64,000 nt of DNA, taken from the NCBI RefSeq assembly GCF_039641995.1, contig NZ_CP087714.1:1178001-1242000 (forward strand). Direction: 5' to 3'. Numbering within the stretch: the stretch's first letter is position 1; each line of letters opens with the position of its first letter. Shown piece after piece: positions 4,230-55,119 of this stretch. This stretch comes from Geoglobus acetivorans. GTDB taxonomy: Archaea; Halobacteriota; Archaeoglobi; Archaeoglobales; Archaeoglobaceae. The position numbers and the translations under genes are program-made. Below the pieces are notes generated by a model. The model saw nothing but the letters and a program-made list of their open reading frames with translations, made no database searches and was not told the origin of the DNA.

Positions 4230-6711
4230 AGTACCCCAGCCTCGCCAGAAATTCGTCCAGTTTTCTTACTTCCTCGTCCCTTTCAGTCCTTAACTGAGTT
4301 ACTGGAACAGAATATTTGTCCCAGAGCTTCTCAAAAATCCTTATCAGCTCTTTCTTCTCGGCGTTGAGGTATTTTTCCAGCTGCTTCACAATAACATCGT
4401 GGAATTTTTCGAGAATCAGCTCCTTTGCATCCTCTTCCGACAGGTTTTCCCTCTTTGCATCAACTTTGCCTTTCTTGACCTTGACGGGCTGTTTTGTCAG
4501 CCTGCCAGTCGTGTACTTTCCCCTCAGCTCCTCAATTTTTTTGTTAAGACTTTTCTTCAGCTGACTGAGCTGTTTGTTCTTTCTATCAATGTTCGTGAGC
4601 AACTCCTGAAGCTTTCTGATTTCCTTAACAGCCGACTCGCTTTCATACCTTTTCAAATCGTTTATCTGCTCTCTCAGGTATTTGATTGCCTTATTTGGGG
4701 TTTTCTTTCCGTTGTCTTCTTCGTCCCACTCCTCTATTTCTTCAAGAAGCTCGTTAAGCTCTCCCTCAACCTCTGCGATTTTTGCCTCAAGCTCCTCTAT
4801 CTGCTCCAGATCTGTTTGGAAATATTTCCTTTCTATTCTTTCGTCTTCAATAATTCTCTTGCTCCACCCAGAAGCCACAACAGTCTTGAAATCATACTTG
4901 AGCTCCTCCCACCAGTTTACAAAGACTCCCGCAACCTTGAACTCATCCAGGACACCAAGGGGTAGAAGTTTTTGCTTGAGGCTCTCAAGAGCTTTGTTTC
5001 TGAATTCCCATAGGTTATTGTTTCCCGGGAAGTTTTCTATATCCTCCACAACCTGGGTCCACCACTCTTCAAGTTTCTGGAAATGCTCTTCAAATTTCTC
5101 TTTAACACCTTCGTGAGATTCTAATAACTCCTTAATTTCACTCTTCTCTTTGATACTTTCTCTGAATGCGAAATATTCCTCATCAAGTTCAGTAAAAAAG
5201 ACCTCCTCATCCACCCCAAACTTCTCCATCTGCTTTCTGTAGAGGTTTATCTCTCTCCTGGGAACTCCACCAACCAGATGAGCCCTGACATCCTCTATTT
5301 CAGGGTCTGGAGAGCTGTCAACGTATCTCCTTATGTTCAGATTGTAATCGTTCTCCTCTATCTCTTTAATATCAACAAGTCTTGAGTACTTGGGTATCTC
5401 CATCTTTTTCTCGAAAACTGTTACGATCTTCTCAATGTCCTCAGGTCTCAGATAGTTCTGATTCCTGCCCTCTCCGTATTCCCTCTCTGCGTTTATGAAA
5501 AAGATCTTGTTCTTCAAATGCTCAGGCTTATTTTTGTTTATAACAATGATGCAGGCCGGAATCCCAGTGTTGTAGAAGAGCTTTGGAGGCAGACCAATTA
5601 TGGCTTCTATTAGATCATCTTTTACGATCCCCTCTCTGATGATCTTTTCCTGCCCACCCCTGAAAAGAACTCCGTGGGGCATAACCGTCACCAGTATTCC
5701 GTTATCGTTGAGGCTGGCAATCATGTGCTGCAGGAACATCAGGTCAGCTTTCTTTCCGTTTTCTGGAGTGAAGCCGTATTTGAATCTCTCCGGAAATTCC
5801 ATGTTTGCAGTGGTGTAATTCTGAGAGAATGGAGGATTGGCCAGAACCCTGTCAAACCTCTTGATGTAGCCATTCTCGCGAAACATTGGGGTTGTAAGCG
5901 TATCTTCGTTTTCTATGTGAGCATCGGGGATGTCGTGCAGGATCATGTTCATCTTGCATATGGACCAGGTAACACCGTTTAGCTCCTGACCGTAAAGTGC
6001 AAGGTTTTTCGGATTTTGCCCCTGCTCTTCGACGTATTGCCTTGCCTCAATTAAAAACCCGCCTGAACCACATGTTGGGTCATATACGCTCATCCCTTCA
6101 TGTGGCTTAATTAACCTCACCATCAGAGTTTTCACATGGGGCGGAGTGTAGAACTCTCCACCTTTCTTTCCTGCGGAGTCTGCAAACTCCTTTAAAAGAT
6201 ATTCATAAGCTGCACCCAGCAAATCAGGAAACTCAAAATCCTCATTTCTAAGTCTGTACTTGTTGAAATGGTGGATTAAATCGATGAGCTGCTGATCTTT
6301 CAGCCTCGTTTTACCCTTCACTGCGTTAAAGTCAATGTGTTTTAACACCCCATCCAGTTCTGGATTTGCCTCTTCTAAAGCAGCAAGAGCCTTGTTCAGC
6401 TGATTTCCAACATCTTCTTTCAAATTCAGAATGTTTTCCCACCTTGCTCTTTCTGGAACAAAAAATGTATCCCCGTACGTAGTGGGGTCTTCAAGAAGCT
6501 CTTCTATTTCTTCTTCTGTGAATCCCTGTTTTTCAAATCTTTCTCTCAATTCTTCTCTTTTAGCCTCAAATACGTCGTTAACACGTTTTAAGAATAACAT
6601 GCCAAAAATGTATTCTTTGTATTCTGAGGCATCCATCTTGCCCCTCAGAATGTCTGCAGCCTTAAAGAGATGTGTTTCCAATTGTTTAAGAGTTATTTTC
6701 CCATTGTTCAT
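4222..6711 (-). CDS. hsdM: Type I restriction-modification DNA methylase HsdM
   Basis: An 829-residue N6-adenine methyltransferase subunit. The HsdM N-terminal bundle is at residues 10-150, [11 protein letters not shown] near 187, the AdoMet motif [10 protein letters not shown] near 209 and the catalytic motif ANPPFSQNY near 292. HsdM is usually about 500 residues. Here some 300 extra C-terminal residues are rich in Glu and Lys with coiled-coil character (for example [20 protein letters not shown]), also seen in other long archaeal HsdM proteins. It is the first visible gene of the operon. The upstream region has an AGGTATCAG-like ribosome binding site just before the ATG. Confidence 0.95.
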
Positions 6712-11790: not shown

Positions 11791-11852
11791 CAAATTGATC
11801 CCCCCAGATTGGTTTTATCATTCATCAGGCCGAGCTTCAAGTTTTGTTCGAG

Positions 11853-14800
11853 TCAGTTTCCGAAGGAAATCTTCGTAATTCTGAGTCCTGTTACATCCTC
11901 ATTAGACATCTGAAGTCCTCTTTCTGTAGCAATCTTCTCCAATAAGTCAACCTGATATTTGTGGCATGTGAAGAAGATTACTTGGTATTTGGCCGATAAA
12001 TCTATAAGCAGCTTTAGCCCATTTTCAAGTCTCTGTGGATCATAGTTTGCAAATATATCATCTATTATCAAGGGAAGAGATTCGTAATTTCTGGTTAGCA
12101 TTTCTGCAATGGTAACTTTGAGTATGAAATAAATCTGATCAATTGCACCTCTGCTAAGATAGTCACACTTTGCAAATATTTTGTGTTCTGGGTCCCTAAC
12201 ATTTACATCTAAGTCATCGTCAACGCGTATATCGCTATACTTGCCTGTAACCATCTTTACCACAGGAGAAATTCTTTCGTTCAACACTCTGACAAAGTCC
12301 TTTGTAAAATCTCGTTCTGCTTCAATTAGTGTTTTTTTGGCAATTTCTAAAGCATCCCTACACATCTCTAACTCGTTTACTTTTTCTTTCACCTCTGCAA
12401 TTGCCTCTTCGATCTCTTGGATGGGCTTGTAACTCTTTTCAAGGATTTCTATCCTCCCTTCATTTATCTTAATCTGCTCTCTTAATTGAACTATTCTCTC
12501 CCTTACTTCTTTGAGATTTGCTTTAATTTCTTCCTTGCTTAATCTAATATATGTACGGTCTCCTTTAACACGCTCGATCTCTTGTTTGAGTTCTTCTAGT
12601 TCATTCTTATAGTCTTCGAGGCTCTTATCCCCAAGAAGAGCGGACCTCTTAGCTTTCAGCTTGTTCAATTCTGAGATCTCATTGCTAGCTTTGGCGTACT
12701 CATCATACGCTCTTTTTAGATCATCAAAAGACTCTACAGAGTATTTGCTGAGTATTCTCGATAATTCGTCCTCAGTTTTTCTTAGATTGTTTTTAACTCT
12801 CTCAACCTCTTCTTCCAATCTTGTAATCTGTCCCCTTATACTTTCGAGGGATTTTTTAGCTTCCAAAACGGATTTCAGGTCTTTGATTGCCATGTCTATT
12901 GAGGATGTGATTTTCTCAATTCTTTCATTTATTTTCGATTCGTCCTCTGAATCATCAAACTCTAACCCGATTTTGGAGAAGATATCTTTTACAGCTTCAA
13001 TGTGCAATCTGATTTTGTCTTTAACACGCTCGATCTCTTGTTTGAGTTCTTCTAGTTCATTCTTATAGTCTTCGAGGCTCTTATCCCCAAGAAGAGCGGA
13101 CCTCTTAGCTTTCAGCTTGTTCAATTCTGAGATCTCATTGCTAGCTTTGGCGTACTCATCATACGCTCTTTTTAGATCATCAAAAGACTCTACAGAGTAT
13201 TTGCTGAGTATTCTCGATAATTCGTCCTCAGTTTTTCTTAGATTGTTTTTAACTCTCTCAACCTCTTCTTCCAATCTTGTAATCTGTCCCCTTATACTTT
13301 CGAGGGATTTTTTAGCTTCCAAAACGGATTTCAGGTCTTTGATTGCCATGTCTATTGAGGATGTGATTTTCTCAATTCTTTCATTTATTTTCGATTCGTC
13401 CTCTGAATCATCAAACTCTAACCCGATTTTGGAGAAGATATCTTTTACAGCTTCAATGTGCAATCTGATTTTGTCTATGGTCTCGTCTCGTCTTTTTTGC
13501 AATCTCTCTACATCCTGGTTTATTAAATCGAGTTTTCCAGATATTGACTTGAACTTTCTGTATTTTTCTAGAAATTCTTCTTTGCTTGCTACACCAAATC
13601 TATGGAGTAACTCTTTAGATTTATCCTGTAAACTCATGGATTCCAATTCCTTTCGTAATTTACTTACCTCTTTCCTCAGATTATCAATTTCTTCAGCTTT
13701 TGGCGCGCCTTTAAGATAAAGCAAAGCTGCAATTACGAGTAATCCGCCTATCAGAACCATTATTGTTGGTGCTCCAAGTACTGGAGAAATTCCCATTAAA
13801 GTGCCCAAAACTGACAGGATTAGTGAATTTCTCCTTTTTAAGTATCTACTTCTCTCTAATAACTCAATTTGCAACTTGTTTGCCTCAATTTTCTCTTTTT
13901 TAGCCTGCGCCCATTCTTCATAATATTGTTCTCTAGTTTTGCTCTCCAATAGTTCATTCACTTCTTCTTCACTTACAGTCTTAAATCTTGACAGTTCGGA
14001 AAGAGTTTTAGACAATTCTTCTTTATCTTTCGATAATGCTTTAATCTGATCTTCAATCGATTCAAGTGAGCTTTTTTCGATTTGCAATTCTTTGTAAGTT
14101 TCCTCTAATTTCTCAATAAATTCGCTAACTTTGTCAGCATATACTGGCAAGGTACTCTCTAGTTTCCTCATTTGCACTTGATACTCGCCTAATTCCGCTT
14201 TAAGTTTCCTCAACTGTTCAGATAGTTCAGCTCGTTTAGCATTCAAAGCAACAGCAGCCTGAAAATCTTCTTTATCTATCTCCAAAATCTCTTTTTCACG
14301 TAAGATATGCATGAGCTCATCAATTTCTTTCTGGGTTTCTTCGACTGCTTTTATTTTCTCCTCCAAGTCATTTTTACTGACGACTAGTTTAATCGATTCA
14401 AGTGAGCTTTTTTCGATTTGCAATTCTTTGTAAGTTTCCTCTAATTTCTCAATAAATTCGCTAACTTTGTCAGCATATACTGGCAAGGTACTCTCTAGTT
14501 TCCTCATTTGCACTTGATACTCGCCTAATTCCGCTTTAAGTTTCCTCAACTGTTCAGATAGTTCAGCTCGTTTAGCATTCAAAGCAACAGCAGCCTGAAA
14601 ATCTTCTTTATCTATCTCCAAAATCTCTTTTTCACGTAAGATATGCATGAGCTCATCAATTTCTTTCTGGGTTTCTTCGACTGCTTTTATTTTCTCCTCC
14701 AAGTCATTTTTACTGACGACTAGTTCAGCATATTCCAAATTTCTTTTCGTTTCAGTTAATTGAGTAAGCTCCAATCTTAAATTCTGCAACTCTTCTAGTT

Positions 14801-15470
14801 TCTCTAAAATTTCTTTAAATGTTTTTTTCGATTTCTCTAATTCATCTCCAAGCTCCTTAAGTTTATTGGCATATGATCCAAGCGGTTTTGATAGAGCATG
14901 GCGTGTACCTATTTTATTCAGTGCGTTTTCGAGTTTCTCTACTGCAAATTTAGACGATATATCCTCAGAACCAGTACTTACGATAGCTTGTATTCTGTCT
15001 TTAAGACTTTCTCTATTGGATAGGGAATCCACCATGTTTTGGCATATGAAAACTGTATCCTTGAAAATGGTCTTATCCACTCCCAAAAGCTCTTCTGCAA
15101 AGTTGGAGTCTCCATTTCGTGTCCGGCTAAATTTATTGGTAATATCATTGCCAAATTCGTCATAAACATTGACTGTTTTTTTGCCAAAATCGCGCACGAC
15201 TTCATAAATCCCGCCATTATCCAGCCTAAAGCGGATTGTCCCTCCCCATCTTTCCCCATTCCAGGGTTTTTTGAGAAGGACCTCATTCTCATATCTCTTC
15301 TGTTTTATGTCATGTCTGAGAGGTCCATAAACCATCGCTATTATGAAATTCTGTAAAGTGGATTTACCAGCCTCATTCTCACCATAAATGACATTTAAGG
15401 AGGGGGAGAACTCCAGTTCTAAATCGTTAAGTTTACCATGTGCCCACACATGCAATTTTTCGATAATCAT
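11853..15470 (-). CDS. YhaN/Rad50-like SMC ATPase with membrane-associated hinge and two internal duplications
   Basis: A 1205-residue ABC/SMC-type ATPase. The Walker A GENEAGKSTLQNF is near residue 34 and Walker B PLIIDDIFANYDP near 1135, with two long coiled-coil arms between. Near residues 543-590 lie two hydrophobic segments (LILSVLGTLMGISPVLG, IMVLIGGLLVIAALLYL), so the hinge is probably membrane-embedded, as in YhaN rather than Rad50. Residues 249-360 are repeated exactly at 361-472, and 666-817 at 818-969. Without these the protein would be about 941 residues. It overlaps the phosphoesterase gene by 4 bases. The pair probably processes DNA ends, possibly at the membrane. Confidence 0.9.
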   Translation of the reverse strand: MIIEKLHVWAHGKLNDLELEFSPSLNVIYGENEAGKSTLQNFIIAMVYGPLRHDIKQKRYENEVLLKKPWNGERWGGTIRFRLDNGGIYEVVRDFGKKTVNVYDEFGNDITNKFSRTRNGDSNFAEELLGVDKTIFKDTVFICQNMVDSLSNRESLKDRIQAIVSTGSEDISSKFAVEKLENALNKIGTRHALSKPLGSYANKLKELGDELEKSKKTFKEILEKLEELQNLRLELTQLTETKRNLEYAELVVSKNDLEEKIKAVEETQKEIDELMHILREKEILEIDKEDFQAAVALNAKRAELSEQLRKLKAELGEYQVQMRKLESTLPVYADKVSEFIEKLEETYKELQIEKSSLESIKLVVSKNDLEEKIKAVEETQKEIDELMHILREKEILEIDKEDFQAAVALNAKRAELSEQLRKLKAELGEYQVQMRKLESTLPVYADKVSEFIEKLEETYKELQIEKSSLESIEDQIKALSKDKEELSKTLSELSRFKTVSEEEVNELLESKTREQYYEEWAQAKKEKIEANKLQIELLERSRYLKRRNSLILSVLGTLMGISPVLGAPTIMVLIGGLLVIAALLYLKGAPKAEEIDNLRKEVSKLRKELESMSLQDKSKELLHRFGVASKEEFLEKYRKFKSISGKLDLINQDVERLQKRRDETIDKIRLHIEAVKDIFSKIGLEFDDSEDESKINERIEKITSSIDMAIKDLKSVLEAKKSLESIRGQITRLEEEVERVKNNLRKTEDELSRILSKYSVESFDDLKRAYDEYAKASNEISELNKLKAKRSALLGDKSLEDYKNELEELKQEIERVKDKIRLHIEAVKDIFSKIGLEFDDSEDESKINERIEKITSSIDMAIKDLKSVLEAKKSLESIRGQITRLEEEVERVKNNLRKTEDELSRILSKYSVESFDDLKRAYDEYAKASNEISELNKLKAKRSALLGDKSLEDYKNELEELKQEIERVKGDRTYIRLSKEEIKANLKEVRERIVQLREQIKINEGRIEILEKSYKPIQEIEEAIAEVKEKVNELEMCRDALEIAKKTLIEAERDFTKDFVRVLNERISPVVKMVTGKYSDIRVDDDLDVNVRDPEHKIFAKCDYLSRGAIDQIYFILKVTIAEMLTRNYESLPLIIDDIFANYDPQRLENGLKLLIDLSAKYQVIFFTCHKYQVDLLEKIATERGLQMSNEDVTGLRITKISFGN
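12563..13474. repeat. Perfect tandem duplication, unit 456 bp, in the C-terminal coiled-coil arm
   Basis: Units 12563-13018 and 13019-13474 appear identical base for base by eye. The unit is 152 codons long, so the frame is kept. Flanking bases differ, which fixes the ends to within two bases. The repeated block starts and ends inside coiled-coil sequence (from DKIRLHIEAVKDIFS to KQEIERVK). Confidence 0.95.
14055..14726. repeat. Perfect tandem duplication, unit 336 bp, in the N-terminal coiled-coil arm
   Basis: Units 14055-14390 and 14391-14726 match in all but their junction base by eye; the unit is 112 codons. The block encodes coiled coil (from VVSKNDLEEKIKAVEE to KSSLESI). It lies in the arm opposite to the 456-bp duplication, on the other side of the hydrophobic hinge. 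Confidence 0.95.
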
Positions 15471-16588
15471 AGAATTTGCACCTCTTTTTTGTCGCTGTCA
15501 AAAGCTTCGAGCCCATAATACAGGGCTTTCATCCAAACCTCCTCTTTTTCGGGATTTTGCTCAATTTTACTGAGTATTCTTCTTACAAATTCACCTCTGA
15601 GAGTATTTTCTTGGGATATGGCTTGAATATCATAGGCAGGATTGGTTTCGTTCTCAACGATAGCGTGATAGAATTGTTTTTTAGCTGCAGCCTCTATTTC
15701 TTCTAATCGTAGTTCCACTGATGGGCTAATTTCCCCTTTAAGAATGATTTTCACGATATTGCGCTCATTAATTCCACTTTGTTTTATCTTGGATATTATG
15801 TCTGCAGAACAAGTTGCTGATGAACAATCTATTTCGAGTATTTCGTAGTTTCTGATTCCTGTTGGAACCTTTTCCAGCTTCACAGTATTACTGGAAATTT
15901 TTACGAGTAATGCATTTCTTTCACCAATCTCATCAAAGTTTAATGGCTCAAGTGTTCCAGGGTAAACTGCTCTGACTTCACCATCAATTTCTATTTCTGC
16001 ATATTTATGGTAGTGGCCAAGGGCAAGATAGTTCAAATTAGAATTTTTCAAATCTCCATCAGTAAATGGCAAACACATTTTACTGGATTCAGGGAGCAAC
16101 ATGGAGTATGGGCTGTAAGAACCATGCATAATTCCTATAGTGGGCGTGTCGGTTTCAACTCTGAGTTTGGCTAAGTGATTGGTAGTATCGTTGTCCCATA
16201 CGTTTGCGATTCCATATACTAGATATTGTTCATTCAATTCTATTTCTTCAAAAAAATTTTTGGAAAAAATATATACGTTTTCTGGCCACTTGATCAGAGA
16301 ATACAGCGAGTTTTTGGTGTAGGGGTCATGGTTTCCGGGTGTAATGAAAATAGGGATATCTAAAGACTCAAAGCATTTTTTGATGAAATATCCAAGGTCC
16401 CTTGTTGCGTACTTTGCCTCATACAAATCTCCCGCTATAAGTATTGCGTCAACGTCAAAATCTTCAGCATTATTTAAAATCTCTTCAAAAGACTGTTTTA
16501 ACTCCAATCTTCTTTCGTATCCTTTTGGTCCTAAGAATCTAAATGGTGCTTCAAGATGTATATCGGAAATATGTAACAGTTTTATCAA
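15467..16588 (-). CDS. YhaO/Mre11-like metallophosphoesterase (DNA exonuclease)
   Basis: A 373-residue calcineurin-like phosphoesterase with Mre11-type motifs: HISDIHLEAPFRF near residue 6, ILIAGDLYEAKYATRDLG near 50, TPGNHDPYT near 83, IGIMHGSYSPYS near 150 and ALGHYHKYAEI near 189. The capping domain follows. The start is a TTG at 16588, supported by AGGTGAT 6 bases upstream and a TCTATAAATAA TATA box some 25 bases before that. It overlaps the ATPase gene by 4 bases. Together they resemble the YhaO-YhaN exonuclease/ATPase pair. Confidence 0.9.
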   Translation of the reverse strand: MIKLLHISDIHLEAPFRFLGPKGYERRLELKQSFEEILNNAEDFDVDAILIAGDLYEAKYATRDLGYFIKKCFESLDIPIFITPGNHDPYTKNSLYSLIKWPENVYIFSKNFFEEIELNEQYLVYGIANVWDNDTTNHLAKLRVETDTPTIGIMHGSYSPYSMLLPESSKMCLPFTDGDLKNSNLNYLALGHYHKYAEIEIDGEVRAVYPGTLEPLNFDEIGERNALLVKISSNTVKLEKVPTGIRNYEILEIDCSSATCSADIISKIKQSGINERNIVKIILKGEISPSVELRLEEIEAAAKKQFYHAIVENETNPAYDIQAISQENTLRGEFVRRILSKIEQNPEKEEVWMKALYYGLEAFDSDKKEVQIL

Positions 16589-16695
16589 GCTATCACCTCA
16601 AGTTTATTTATAGACGCTCATTGAGGTTTGTGCTAGTATTTAAATTTAATTTCTCCAATTGTTCATAATCAGCGTAATATCTCAAAATAATTTTG

Positions 16696-16812
16696 CTACA
16701 CTCCATACAATCTTCTCTCGCTAAATTCAAACACTGTTTCGTGGTCAATTTTATCAGAAAAATTCTGATATGGTGTTTCAAGTGTATACTCAGACCCCCA
16801 CTCTCCCACCAT
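16696..16812 (-). other. C-terminal gene stump overlapping the end of the beta-CASP gene
   Basis: A minus frame reads EWGSEYTLETPYQNFSDKI and then DHETVFEFSERRLYGV to a TAG at 16696. It partly overlaps the last codons of the upstream beta-CASP gene in another frame. The phrase YTLETP recalls the end of M14 carboxypeptidase-like proteins, but this is weak. It has no start of its own and is likely a leftover. Confidence 0.3.
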
Positions 16813-18307
16813 CTCTAAACACAACCACACTCTCAAAGTTTTCCGCAAACCACTCATGGTTTGTGGTATGCACCGGAATGATCACATCCGGATCAATCTG
16901 CTCGATTATCCACCTCAGATCCTCTTTTGAGGCATGCCCTGAGGCGTGGTAGCCCTTTATGAACTCAGGAGCCAGTTTTCCATCTTTCAGCACCATCCTG
17001 AAGCCGTAGACCCTCAGATTGAATTCTCTCAGCCAGTTGTACAGTCTGAGAAAGTCGAACTCCTGTTCTTCGCTGAACGCCTCGCTCGAAGAGTAGATGT
17101 ACGCTCCACCATCCGGCTTTATGTCGAGCAGATGCTTCATGTCGTGGAATGAAAAGCAGAGAATGTAGTTCTCTGGATTTTTCGAAATCTCTGCTGGATC
17201 GACGAACTTTTCACCCCACCTCTTCATGATGGTTTCCGTTTCCCATTTGGCTCTTGACCTGTCTTTAATTTCGTAATAAATTCGAGCATCTTCCAGCCTG
17301 CAAACTCCATCAGCACACTCGATGGCATGAAGCATGTAGGCGTCTTTTGCAGTTACAACAAGCTCTCTCCCAGTTTTTCGTGCAATTTTCAGAAAAGTTT
17401 CAAGCCTTTCAAAATTTCTCGGTGAGAAATCAGCTATTACGATCCCTTTCGACTCTTCAACAGCCCTGAGACAGTTCTCAAATACTGTTTTTTCAGATTC
17501 ATTCTCGTCATCTCTCGAAGTTCTTGTCCCTTCTGTAATCAGAACCCGCGCATCCCTGCTATTTTTGACGAACTCCCTTGTTTTGGCAGCGTTTCTGCCG
17601 TGAAGCCTGAGATCTCCGGTATACGATACTGCCACATCCCCGTAGATGATGTATGCATTGGCCCCGTAGATTGAGTGATCAACCTCAAAAGCCCTGACCT
17701 CGAACGGTAGTGCGGTGTCAGATATGTGGGTCACTTCTCCATCCACAATACCTTTTGTCCCGGGTCTGCTTGAGACGAACTCCATGAGATCATCAGAAAA
17801 TTCAGAAGTGCACACGAATTTCCGTCCCACATAATTGCCGCTTTTGGATTTGAGGTACCTTCCATTCTCCTGAGGCGCTCTGGGAGAGAAGTACGCTATC
17901 TCCGATCCAATCTTTGCTTGTGAGGAATCCCTCAATGCCTTGAGGATGGCAACCGATATTGGTGAGGAGACTATGGCGATGTTCTCGCTGAGCAGGCCGA
18001 TGTTCCCGCAGTGGTCCATGTGGGCATGGCTCAAAAGAACTGCCCCGACATTGAGCTTAGGGTATGATGAAGTGTCCAGATCGGATGGTATCAGGTCCTT
18101 TCTGTAAACATTTATCTTCGGAATCAGGTCGAGGTGAATGAGGTCGTGAATGCCCCTTCCGCTCCTCTCTGTCAGAAATTCCTGGAAATACTGGCTGTAT
18201 TTCGCAAAGTTCATGCCGAAGTCCAGAAAAACTCCCCTGCCGTCTTCTTCAACGTAGATCTTGTTCCCGCCGATTGTTGTCGCACCATCGTAAACTGTTA
18301 TTTTCAT
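16790..18307 (-). CDS. RNase J-like beta-CASP metallo-beta-lactamase nuclease
   Basis: A 505-residue MBL-fold protein. The zinc motif HxHxDH is LLSHAHMDHCGNIG near residue 93. Further ligands are VDHSIYGANAY, YTGDLRLHGRNA near 230 and the C-terminal HASGHASKEDL and IPVHTTNHEW, an RNase J-type arrangement with a beta-CASP insertion (VLITEGTRTSRDD). RNase J proteins act as 5'-3' exo- and endoribonucleases. The gene starts inside the end of the RmuC gene (4-base ATGA overlap), an unusual pairing. It may act on foreign nucleic acid, but that is inference. Confidence 0.87.
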   Translation of the reverse strand: MKITVYDGATTIGGNKIYVEEDGRGVFLDFGMNFAKYSQYFQEFLTERSGRGIHDLIHLDLIPKINVYRKDLIPSDLDTSSYPKLNVGAVLLSHAHMDHCGNIGLLSENIAIVSSPISVAILKALRDSSQAKIGSEIAYFSPRAPQENGRYLKSKSGNYVGRKFVCTSEFSDDLMEFVSSRPGTKGIVDGEVTHISDTALPFEVRAFEVDHSIYGANAYIIYGDVAVSYTGDLRLHGRNAAKTREFVKNSRDARVLITEGTRTSRDDENESEKTVFENCLRAVEESKGIVIADFSPRNFERLETFLKIARKTGRELVVTAKDAYMLHAIECADGVCRLEDARIYYEIKDRSRAKWETETIMKRWGEKFVDPAEISKNPENYILCFSFHDMKHLLDIKPDGGAYIYSSSEAFSEEQEFDFLRLYNWLREFNLRVYGFRMVLKDGKLAPEFIKGYHASGHASKEDLRWIIEQIDPDVIIPVHTTNHEWFAENFESVVVFRDGGRVGV

Positions 18308-19329
18308 TCTTCTACCTCCTCAAGCTTGGCAATTGTAGAATAATACCCTTTTAGACTGGCTATGGATTGCTGGACTTTTGACAAGTTACTGTAGGCGTTG
18401 CTAACGTGTCTTGAGAGCGTTTCAAATCTAGAATCAACATCATTGATGTAGCTGCCAAGCACATTTATTTTATTCTGGATTTCGTCAGCTCTCTTTGAGA
18501 TCTCTTCAGCCTTTATTCTGGCAGAGATTAGAGAAAGGTAGGCTGGAAGCACTGAAGGAGATGTCAGAATTACTCCTGCCTTGGATGCCTCAACTGCAAT
18601 GTCTGGAGATTCAGAGACGAGGTGGTGGAATATCGCATCAGATGGAACGAACATGAAAGCAAAGTCAAGAGTGCTTTCTTTCCCCACGTACTTCTTCCTG
18701 ATCTCCTCAATGTGATTTTTCACGTCTTTTATGAAATCTCTCCAGTACTTCTCCTTCTCAGATTCGCTATTCGCCTCACTGTACTTCCTGAAGTTCTCAA
18801 GCGGGAATTTTGAGTCTATGCAGAGATACCTGCCATCTTCTACAAGAATGCATGCGTCCGGAATACCAACTCCAATATTTTTCTGAAACTGAATGCGAGA
18901 AGCTGGAAAGATGTCCTTCAGCAAGCTTTCGAGCTGGAGCTCGCCAAATTTTGCCCTCGCATGCTTCACCTGAAACATTGTTTTCAGGTCGGAGGTTATC
19001 GCCTTGAGATCTGCAGAAGCTTCACTCAGCTTTCCAAGATCCTCCTGAATTCCCAGCTCTTTCAGGGAGGTTGCAAAGGCACCCTTTATCACTTCTGAAT
19101 TCTTTGTTATGGCCGATGCAAAGAGACTTTCGAAAACTCCTGCCGAGTTCTGGAACGTTTTTGCAACAGCACCTTCAACCCATTCTGGCAAACTTCTGTT
19201 CAAATCTTCGAATTTCCTGCTGACCTCCTCGATCCTGCTTTCAGCATTCCTCTGCTTGAGGATCACATACCCCAGAACTGCAAGAACGGTGATCGGCAGC
19301 AATATGTCGTAGAATTCCGCGACCTGCAT
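18304..19329 (-). CDS. rmuC: RmuC-family protein (membrane-anchored nuclease fold)
   Basis: A 341-residue protein. An N-terminal transmembrane helix (YDILLPITVLAVLGYVIL) is followed by coiled coil and then the RmuC domain with its PD-(D/E)XK-like core: NIGVGIPDACILVEDG, YLCIDSKFPLENFRKY near residue 170 and TLDFAFMFVPSDAIFHHL. RmuC limits DNA inversions in bacteria; its biochemical role is poorly known. It is the first gene of a two-gene operon with the beta-CASP nuclease and is driven by promoter copy 3 with an AGGTGGTGA ribosome binding site. Confidence 0.88.
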   Translation of the reverse strand: MQVAEFYDILLPITVLAVLGYVILKQRNAESRIEEVSRKFEDLNRSLPEWVEGAVAKTFQNSAGVFESLFASAITKNSEVIKGAFATSLKELGIQEDLGKLSEASADLKAITSDLKTMFQVKHARAKFGELQLESLLKDIFPASRIQFQKNIGVGIPDACILVEDGRYLCIDSKFPLENFRKYSEANSESEKEKYWRDFIKDVKNHIEEIRKKYVGKESTLDFAFMFVPSDAIFHHLVSESPDIAVEASKAGVILTSPSVLPAYLSLISARIKAEEISKRADEIQNKINVLGSYINDVDSRFETLSRHVSNAYSNLSKVQQSIASLKGYYSTIAKLEEVEE

Positions 19330-19356
19330 TTCACCACCTGAGGTTGATTGATTTGA

Positions 19357-19379
19357 TATTACTTAAACTTTTTGTTCAA
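19357..19379 (-). promoter_or_regulatory. Shared 23-bp promoter element, copy 3 (RmuC/beta-CASP operon)
   Basis: On the minus strand TTGAAC, an A-run, then TTTAAGTAATA; one base differs from copy 1. It ends 27 bases before the rmuC ATG, so TTTAAGTA is correctly placed as a TATA box for a short leader. Confidence 0.8.
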
Positions 19380-19493
19380 GTTTAAAAATGCATGGATCGA
19401 AAACGAGTTCGATGTATGATGAACACTGAAAGGATTCACGGAGATACAAATTGGAGGATAAAACATGCAGTTTCGATGCAGAAAACACTAATC

Positions 19494-20189
19494 TCAGTTT
19501 AGAGCTGCAGTTATCGCCTTTCCGAGTTCCGTAAGCATTATCTTCACGTTTCTGCCATGCTTCTCTCTCTTGACAAACCCTGCCCTTTCAAGCTTTGAGA
19601 GGTGGTGGCTCAGCCTGCTCCTCTCACTCTGGAACTCTCTGCTTCCCCTGTCAATTTCTGGATTGAGCTTTATTACCAGCTCATCGAGGGAAGATACACC
19701 GTCTCCTATGGCTTTCAAAATCTCCATCTGCTCCTTTCCGGGAAAGCTTACCGGTAGGATGGGCAGTTCCACGATCTCCTCTATTCCTTCTTCCTCATCG
19801 TTTTCACCGTATTTCGGAATTGAGGAGAACACCCTTGAATTCGTGATGCTCGCGGCAATGTATGCTGCAATTGCGAAAGTTCTGAGAGAGCCCGAGACGT
19901 TGAACACAACCTCATTACCATTCTCCCGCTCTCTCTCTGCCACCTCCACAAGCTCGAGAACAGCGTTCATGATGTTTTTCTTGTCAATCTCCACAATCTC
20001 GACGTCAAATATTGTTTTGAGCTCATCTGCAATTTCCCGGGCAACTCTTCTGGCCTTCCTCTCACCACTCGTGTCAGGCTTTCCAACTGCGAGAATGATT
20101 CTGGTGACGGGCAGTTCCCTGAGGGCGCGGATGGATTCGATAATCCTTTCCCTTGTGTGTCCGATGAACGTGATCTGGGTTACGGGCAT
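19494..20189 (-). CDS. CARF-HTH transcriptional regulator (Csa3-like)
   Basis: A 231-residue protein. The N-terminal CARF domain has TQITFIGHTRERIIESI at the start and the ligand loop VVFNVSGSLRTFAIAAYIAA near residue 100. The C-terminal winged helix has KEQMEILKAIGDGVSSLDEL and SRLSHHLSKLERAGFVKREK, ending in LTELGKAI. This is the layout of Csa3, a regulator of CRISPR genes whose CARF domain can bind cyclic tetra-adenylate. Its own promoter is copy 4 of the shared element, so it is the best candidate for the factor binding all copies. It lies far from the cas genes. Confidence 0.85.
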   Translation of the reverse strand: MPVTQITFIGHTRERIIESIRALRELPVTRIILAVGKPDTSGERKARRVAREIADELKTIFDVEIVEIDKKNIMNAVLELVEVAERERENGNEVVFNVSGSLRTFAIAAYIAASITNSRVFSSIPKYGENDEEEGIEEIVELPILPVSFPGKEQMEILKAIGDGVSSLDELVIKLNPEIDRGSREFQSERSRLSHHLSKLERAGFVKREKHGRNVKIMLTELGKAITAALN

Positions 20190-53014: not shown

Positions 53015-55119
53015 GACGCGGTTCTCCTTATGAGATTCCGAAAAACTCGAAAAACTCAGAACATTGAAAAATGACATTGGTTTCCGTTCTCCTTATGAGA
53101 TTCTTGATTTTGATGAGAGGACAATGCAATTCAAATTTGGGTTACCGTTCTCCTTATGAGATTCTACAGAGTATATGGGTGATGGCTACATAATCAACAT
53201 GTGTGCATTGGTTACCGTTCTCCTTATGAGATTCGTGAAAATTGAGAAATTCGATAATGACATAGAATTTGCGTTACCGTTCTCCTTATGAGATTCGTGA
53301 AAATTGAGAAATTCGATAATGACATAGAATTTGCGTTACCGTTCTCCTTATGAGATTCAAAAAAATAAAGGAGGTCGATAAAAATGGCAGGAGTGATATA
53401 GTTACCGTTCTCCTTATGAGATTCTCAGAGAGACCACACAAGTAGGTACTCCGCCAGTGAGGTTACCGTTCTCCTTATGAGATTCGTAATAAGACTCGCC
53501 AAATACGGAAAATGCGTTTTCGTTACCGTTCTCCTTATGAGATTCTGACGACCTGTACCTCGTCTCGGTTTACAACTATGTTAGTTACCGTTCTCCTTAT
53601 GAGATTCAGAGAGTCCTTAAGTGCGATGTGTGCGGTAAAGAGACGTTACCGTTCTCCTTATGAGATTCTCAATTGGTTCAAGAAGATGGCAAGGAAGGAA
53701 GGCAGTTACCGTTCTCCTTATGAGATTCCACATCTGATCGCAGTTGGAACAGTTAGCTCAATATATTATGTTACCGTTCTCCTTATGAGATTATTGTATC
53801 ATATATTTATGAGGCATCCTTTCAGAATGAGTTACCGTTCTCCTTATGAGATTCATATCATGTTACTGATGTTTGGACAATAGTTTATAATAAAAGTTAC
53901 CGTTCTCCTTATGAGATTCTGAAATGGAAAGGATGGACGTTTTGAAGATAAAAGTGTTACCGTTCTCCTTATGAGATTCCAACATTGAGATCGTGGACGT
54001 GAAGTTTGAGGAGGTTGGGTTACCGTTCTCCTTATGAGATTCAGTTTGAGGTCAGGATAGTGGACCAGATTGCAAGAGTTACCGTTCTCCTTATGAGATT
54101 CAGTTTGAGGTCAGGATAGTGGACCAGATTGCAAGAGTTACCGTTCTCCTTATGAGATTCTTTTAGGTGATCGCCATGATGCGGATATATTATATAATGT
54201 TACCGTTCTCCTTATGAGATTCCTTTCTTTTCTCATCCAAATACTCAACTGGTATTATTTTGTTACCGTTCTCCTTATGAGATTCAGAAGAGTTATTTAC
54301 ATGGATTCAGAATGAATTTAAACCAAGTTACCGTTCTCCTTATGAGATTCTTGGTGATTCAGGCATTAACAGCGGCAAGTTTGATAGGTTACCGTTCTCC
54401 TTATGAGATTCTTTGAGTCGAGTTCTTGTATATCGAATCCGGCCCCGATGATATGTTACCGTTCTCCTTATGAGATTCCATGGTTCATTCACGGACAGTC
54501 TCCTGATCGCAATGTCATACGTTACCGTTCTCCTTATGAGATTCACGGAAAAAGAACTAATGGAAAGGGGAAAGCGCCTCGCCATGTTACCGTTCTCCTT
54601 ATGAGATTCATAAGGAGTTCAAGGACATGTGCAGGGAGGAGGCTGAGTTACCGTTCTCCTTATGAGATTCTAAACTGTCCGCCTTCCCGTGCGTGGGTTC
54701 TTTCTGAGTTACCGTTCTCCTTATGAGATTCTTGAAGGGGCTAAAGACTACAAAGATGGGGTGATTGAATAAGTTACCGTTCTCCTTATGAGATTCTTGA
54801 AGGGGCTAAAGACTACAAAGATGGGGTGATTGAATAAGTTACCGTTCTCCTTATGAGATTCCGAAATGTTCATTGTCTTTTATCATATCACTCATTTTAA
54901 GCATATCAGTTACCGTTCTCCTTATGAGATTCGTATGTTCTGACTTTTGACACCGTGAATGGTGGTGTGTTACCGTTCTCCTTATGAGATTCTGGAGACC
55001 CTGTAGGGTGTGGTGCTTTAACAATGGAAAGCGTTACCGTTCTCCTTATGAGATTCCGAACATTGTGGTGCATACCTTGACCCATAAACGAGGTGGTTAC
55101 CGTTCTCCTTATGAGATTC
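53015..55119 (-). CRISPR. CRISPR array 2: 34 repeats, 33 spacers
   Basis: Same 24-base repeat as array 1 (starts GTTACCGTTC, ends TTATGAGATTC), the first at 53015-53038 (variant, GACGCGG start) and the last at 55096-55119; spacing 59-70 bases. The repeat at 53770 ends in A instead of C. Three spacers occur twice side by side: after repeats at 53211/53273, 54019/54078 and 54708/54773. The leader is at the right, so transcription is on the minus strand. Confidence 0.98.

Follow-up and report, generated by a model that had tools for sequence, protein, structure and literature searches.

The window, by which we mean the whole stretch of 64,000 nucleotides that was analysed, carries a two-gene cassette encoding an Mre11/SbcD-type phosphoesterase and a long SMC/Rad50-type ATPase (Table 1). 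The ATPase matches PF13476 (AAA_23) with 56.9 bits (cut-off 27) and PF13514 (AAA_27) with 35.3 bits (cut-off 22), and possesses the Walker A motif GENEAGKST, the signature LSRG, the Walker B motif LIIDD and TCH. Two long coiled-coil arms flank a hydrophobic hinge, and the CxxC zinc hook of Rad50/SbcC was found nowhere in the protein. Homologues occur throughout the archaeal phylum as well as in many bacteria, and the same hydrophobic two-helix hinge is present in nearly all of them. The product of the adjacent gene scores 52 bits with the Metallophos model, and the yhaO-yhaN order is kept in most archaeal homologues, mostly with an overlap of a few bases. The gene encodes a YhaN-type Rad50-like ATPase of the YhaO-YhaN pair, which presumably works with the Mre11-like nuclease YhaO encoded alongside.

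Table 1. Positions in the window of the yhaO-yhaN cassette, its genes and the duplicated units of the yhaN-like gene.
Feature	Position	Strand	Remarks
yhaO-yhaN cassette	11804..16700	.	36.7% GC vs 45-47% in flanks; absent from close relative G001
yhaN-like gene, SMC/Rad50-type ATPase, 1205 aa (941 aa single-copy)	11853..15470	-	AAA_23, AAA_27, motifs
C-arm unit copy 2, 152 codons, identical to copy 1	12564..13019	-	exact run 458, 2-bp microhomology AG
C-arm unit copy 1, 152 codons	13020..13475	-	
Hydrophobic hinge, two membrane-helix-like stretches, aa 547-592	13695..13832	-	hydropathy peak 2.41, no CxxC
N-arm unit copy 2, 112 codons, begins AAA	14055..14390	-	G>A in first codon is the one difference
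Junction codon AAA (outer ends GAA), 3-bp microhomology with one substitution	14388..14390	-	
N-arm unit copy 1, 112 codons, begins GAA	14391..14726	-	
yhaO-like Mre11/SbcD-type phosphoesterase, 373 aa	15467..16588	-	overlaps yhaN start by 4 bp; motifs DIH, GD, GNHD, GHYH

Three other assignments of the ATPase were rejected. It is not a Rad50/SbcC proper, the best Rad50 models scoring 74.1 and 67.7 bits where the cut-offs are 700 and 1000; the host genome has a separate canonical Mre11-Rad50 pair. An SMC chromosome protein is equally excluded (SMC_prok_B 55.4 bits against 567), and the hinge is hydrophobic where the globular SMC hinge would be expected. Models of the Lamassu protein LmuB do match, with a best E of 2e-31; however, no LmuA or LmuC match was found among the six neighbouring genes scanned, and an Mre11-like enzyme takes the place of the partner. 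No relatives of the YhaN-like protein were found on viral contigs, and the plasmid search returned only distant AAA ATPases, none of them covering the protein. Two kinds of reduced relatives were also encountered. The locus L055 contains a 274-aa frame (4998-5822, minus strand) that matches the window protein's C-head at about 40% identity and retains hardly any arm or none; it is probably a decayed copy. Four YhaN-like proteins of Lachnospiraceae (L094, L097, L148 and L120) are very short, 509-519 aa, and a hydrophobic hinge was not detected in them.

The yhaO-yhaN pair looks recently acquired, since the cassette flanks abut without it in the close relative G001 (Rad50 92% identical), its GC content is low, and no convincing homologue was found in 55 genomes of the family, where the weak matches were judged to be other coiled-coil ATPases. 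In G001 the HepT/nucleotidyltransferase flank directly adjoins the metallo-beta-lactamase gene, a clean insertion/deletion difference. Next to the cassette in the window (16790-20189), an RmuC-family gene and an RNase-J-like metallo-beta-lactamase gene overlap by 4 bp and lie beside a CARF-domain regulator (PADLOC CARF3, E 5e-112). Together with yhaO-yhaN, the HepT/nucleotidyltransferase genes and CRISPR arrays, these genes look like a defence or repair island.

Within the single open frame of the yhaN-like gene, one segment of each arm is present twice in tandem. The first-pass annotation had reported a doubled unit of 336 bp and one of 456 bp, and repeat comparison in the window gave the same coordinates and lengths. 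Its description of both units as multiples of three, lying one per coiled-coil arm on either side of the hydrophobic hinge, was likewise borne out: the units, of 112 and 152 codons, keep the reading frame, and the protein of 1205 aa would have 941 aa if each unit were counted once. The C-arm unit of 456 bp forms an exact tandem pair over 458 positions (12563-13020 against 13019-13476) with 0 differences, and its ends share a 2-bp microhomology (AG). The N-arm unit of 336 bp forms a tandem pair (14055-14726) that is identical at 335 of 336 positions, so that the earlier statement of no visible difference stands for the 456-bp pair and fails by one base for the 336-bp pair. This sole mismatch is a coding-strand G>A at the junction, where the codon reads AAA, with GAA at both outer ends; the ends of this unit thus have a 3-bp microhomology with one substitution within it. 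The chance expectation for exact repeats of this length is far exceeded.

Exact tandem duplications of at least 40 bp were counted in 782 kb of the 1,903,522-base genome, sampled in stretches (462 kb including the window, and 320 kb). The only others found were three CRISPR repeat-spacer units, located in the same window; one further exact pair of 41 bp in the 320-kb part has its copies 2468 bp apart and hence is not tandem. In the CRISPR arrays, 3 of 47 spacers are exact tandem duplicates (53211-53358, 54019-54160 and 54707-54861; repeat GTTACCGTTCTCCTTATGAGATTC), with an origin either in natural recombination or in assembly.

Homologues from elsewhere took the place of the related-species homologue of about 940 residues that the first-pass annotation had proposed for comparison. 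Arm lengths were compared in 109 homologues, with the present protein left out, by measuring the N-arm from N-head to hinge and the C-arm from hinge to C-head. The two lengths are almost perfectly correlated (Pearson r = 0.995), with a slope of 1.265 and a robust residual SD of 11.8 aa. First regressions had been measured from the protein termini and gave r = 0.94, with outliers caused by extended N-termini; anchored on the heads, the measurement reached 0.995. As the slope indicates, residues in the returning strand outnumber those in the outgoing one by about a quarter. Disjoint pairs taken from the head tree retained the relation, with r 0.988 and a slope of 1.27, and the C arm shifts in the same direction in all 13 of the 13 head-tree pairs whose N-arms differ by at least 30 aa.

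The present 1205-aa protein lies +14 aa off this arm line (z +1.2), and its single-copy form +3.8 aa (z 0.3). With the N unit alone doubled the deviation would be -138 aa (z -11.7), and with the C unit alone +156 aa (z +13.2); none of the 109 homologues is as far off the line as either of these single-duplication forms. Both duplications together therefore preserve the family-wide ratio of N to C arm, and either alone would break it. The units also occupy mirror positions, the N unit lying 74-185 aa ahead of the hinge and the C unit 74-225 aa beyond it. In a test devised post hoc, random duplication pairs were equally balanced and mirrored in 1.4% of one-per-arm trials and in 0.09% of all pairs. 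Coupled arm lengths are expected for an antiparallel hairpin, and the new part is that the change arrives as paired tandem duplications.

Older repeats of the same kind were found in the homologues by an ungapped scan; self-BLAST gave no matches. The protein L068, whose genome falls in a group of the same phylum that is rich in methanogens, carries tandem repeats of 50-59% identity in both arms, with a period of 121 for the N arm and of 152 for the C arm. Relative to three sister proteins of 1039-1042 aa it contains exactly 121 and 101+51=152 extra residues as clean insertions, and its head nests among single-unit relatives on the head tree. About 2 kb upstream of this yhaN gene (G104 contig 1, 709296-710300) lies a 378-aa frame that matches the initial 335 aa of this YhaN with 64% identity and is a truncated, partial copy of the gene. 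Some 20 proteins of 1278-1306 aa, taken as Methanosarcinaceae, form a group with periods of 109 and 128. In L114 and L157, from metagenome-assembled genomes of Oscillospiraceae, the periods are 36 and 49-50, and the arms are longer than those of their sisters by about 38 and 50 aa. The repeat tracts are mirrored about the hinge in L068, in the Methanosarcinaceae group and in L114/L157, and the strong cases have a duplication in both arms every time.

Canonical Rad50 of the same phylum served as a control and displays background self-similarity up to z 12.6. The present protein, L068 and the better-conserved proteins with periods of 109 and 128 are clearly above this background. L066, L058, L114 and L157 do not stand securely above it by themselves and are recognized by shared periods or by the lengths of their sisters; the oldest cases (L066 and L058) and L114/L157 are weaker than their scores would indicate, because charge-rich canonical Rad50 coils are also self-similar. 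The same paired tandem duplication has taken place in a minimum of two further lineages (121 + 152 and 109 + 128), and probably in a third one, gut bacteria (36 + 50). L093 and L085 have long arms, as does L143, but in the former two a rescan gave no repeat above background; therefore, not every gain in length leaves a visible duplication. A 76-aa older period in the C arm was slightly above shuffled sequences and had no N-arm counterpart, and we do not claim it.

A single-sequence AlphaFold model of the arms of the present protein was poor (pLDDT 51.9) and was not used for pairing. The model of the homologue L105 reached pLDDT 82 and was used for secondary structure only. It places long head-side helices at 190-277 and 695-791 and hinge-side helices of 40 aa each at 381-420 and 483-522, which enclose a middle zone of shorter helices whose span is about 87 aa on the N side and about 146 aa on the C side. 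On one reading of this model, the repeating unit may be a block of coil plus joint, the joint needing more residues on the C side. Their positions and lengths suggest that the N and C units pack against each other.

We consider it probable that the gene records a real, recent and balanced lengthening of the arms, and that it is the freshest case of a recurrent change of arm length in the YhaN-type family. Recent arm lengthening was one of three options in the first-pass annotation; it is supported and becomes more specific here, in that the duplications are matched and jointly keep the hairpin balanced. The hairpin runs from the N-head through the outgoing N-arm, the hydrophobic hinge hairpin and the returning C-arm to the C-head. 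One segment per arm was copied in place, so that the outgoing strand gained 112 aa and the returning one 152 aa. Each duplication would have been an illegitimate one, made by template switching or end-joining where 2-3 bp of microhomology were shared. Whichever duplication came first would have unbalanced the hairpin, and the second would have been kept because it restored the hairpin register. Since the two segments would pack together, the protein may have gained one whole hairpin building block, and at 0.148 nm per residue the arm would have grown by about 17 nm. The longer arm would widen the reach from the ATPase/nuclease head to the hydrophobic, possibly membrane-bound hinge. A broader proposal, which we put forward tentatively and regard as rather doubtful, is that paired register-preserving tandem duplication is a standard route to longer SMC/Rad50-like hairpins, with both duplications possibly made or selected in one short episode and the present gene caught immediately after it.

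The copies have diverged so little that one or both extra copies might be absent in the organism and owe their presence to assembly or sequencing, another option listed in the first-pass annotation. The sample's other exact tandem duplications, all three of them CRISPR spacers of the same window, point in the same direction, as assemblers err at CRISPR arrays. However, the junction base matches neither parent, the units are in frame, mirrored and balanced in opposite arms, the 782 kb hold no other case outside the CRISPR array, and other genomes hold older, diverged paired duplications of the same kind; an artefact is therefore unlikely. Moreover, because the unit ends share only 2-3 bp, there is no long graph repeat for an assembler to loop through.

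If the copies are real, they could represent two independent and effectively neutral duplications with a coincidental balance, as coiled coils may generally be expected to take in-frame insertions more readily than globular domains. Against such tolerance, a single-arm form would stand 12-13 robust SD off the r = 0.995 relation and beyond all 109 homologues, the strong cases are always paired, and a match this good is reached by random one-per-arm pairs in only 1.4% of trials, so we hold coincidence to be very improbable. It is just as improbable, in our judgement, that the locus is a contingency system in which the copy number of the units varies reversibly by direct-repeat recombination and switches the arm length. 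Tandem repeats of 336 and 456 bp as perfect as these should recombine readily, and their near-identity could equally reflect ongoing turnover. Independent variation would nevertheless unbalance the arms, and relatives with old duplications of this paired kind hardly vary in length (1278-1306 aa among the Methanosarcinaceae proteins). The slippage-type variation of arm length suggested earlier has no support so far; the unit ends share only 2-3 bp of microhomology. Balanced, recent lengthening remains the explanation that we favour.

The locus bears on how evolution resizes both strands of an antiparallel hairpin without a broken intermediate. Both required changes are visible together here, nearly undiverged and mirror-placed, and older versions are present in relatives. 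The paired duplications suggest how molecular arms change length while staying in step. In SMC proteins, natural arms cluster at lengths spaced by about 100 aa, and resized arms work at certain lengths only (Buermann et al. 2017, PMC5344682). The parts of that study consulted here describe no natural duplication event, whereas the present gene displays the lengthening step in its sequence, one per strand. The coil length of Rad50 has been described as conserved (PMC5082667). Our limited search of the literature, which covered few subscription journals, found no paper on YhaN with coiled coil and ATPase, and none describing natural duplications paired across the two strands of a hairpin.

The present protein resembles Rad50 acting with Mre11 (SbcCD) in its head fold, its signature motifs and its phosphoesterase partner, and the structure that a homologue's model matches best is the Mre11-Rad50-Nbs1 complex. 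Unlike Rad50, it has a hydrophobic hinge in place of the CxxC zinc hook. The canonical Rad50 proteins sampled in the phylum are mostly 885-925 aa long (702-925 aa in all), and the archaeal YhaN-like proteins range from 834 to 1318 aa. The YhaN of Bacillus subtilis has about 963 aa. The present protein is about 20% identical to archaeal YhaN homologues, and its position in the tree is loosely among bacterial proteins, without strong support. With YhaN/YhaO of the AAA_27 family it shares the AAA_27 and AAA_23 halves, the central hydrophobic hinge and the overlapping phosphoesterase gene upstream; it differs from the known YhaN/YhaO in having fresh tandem duplications in both arms.
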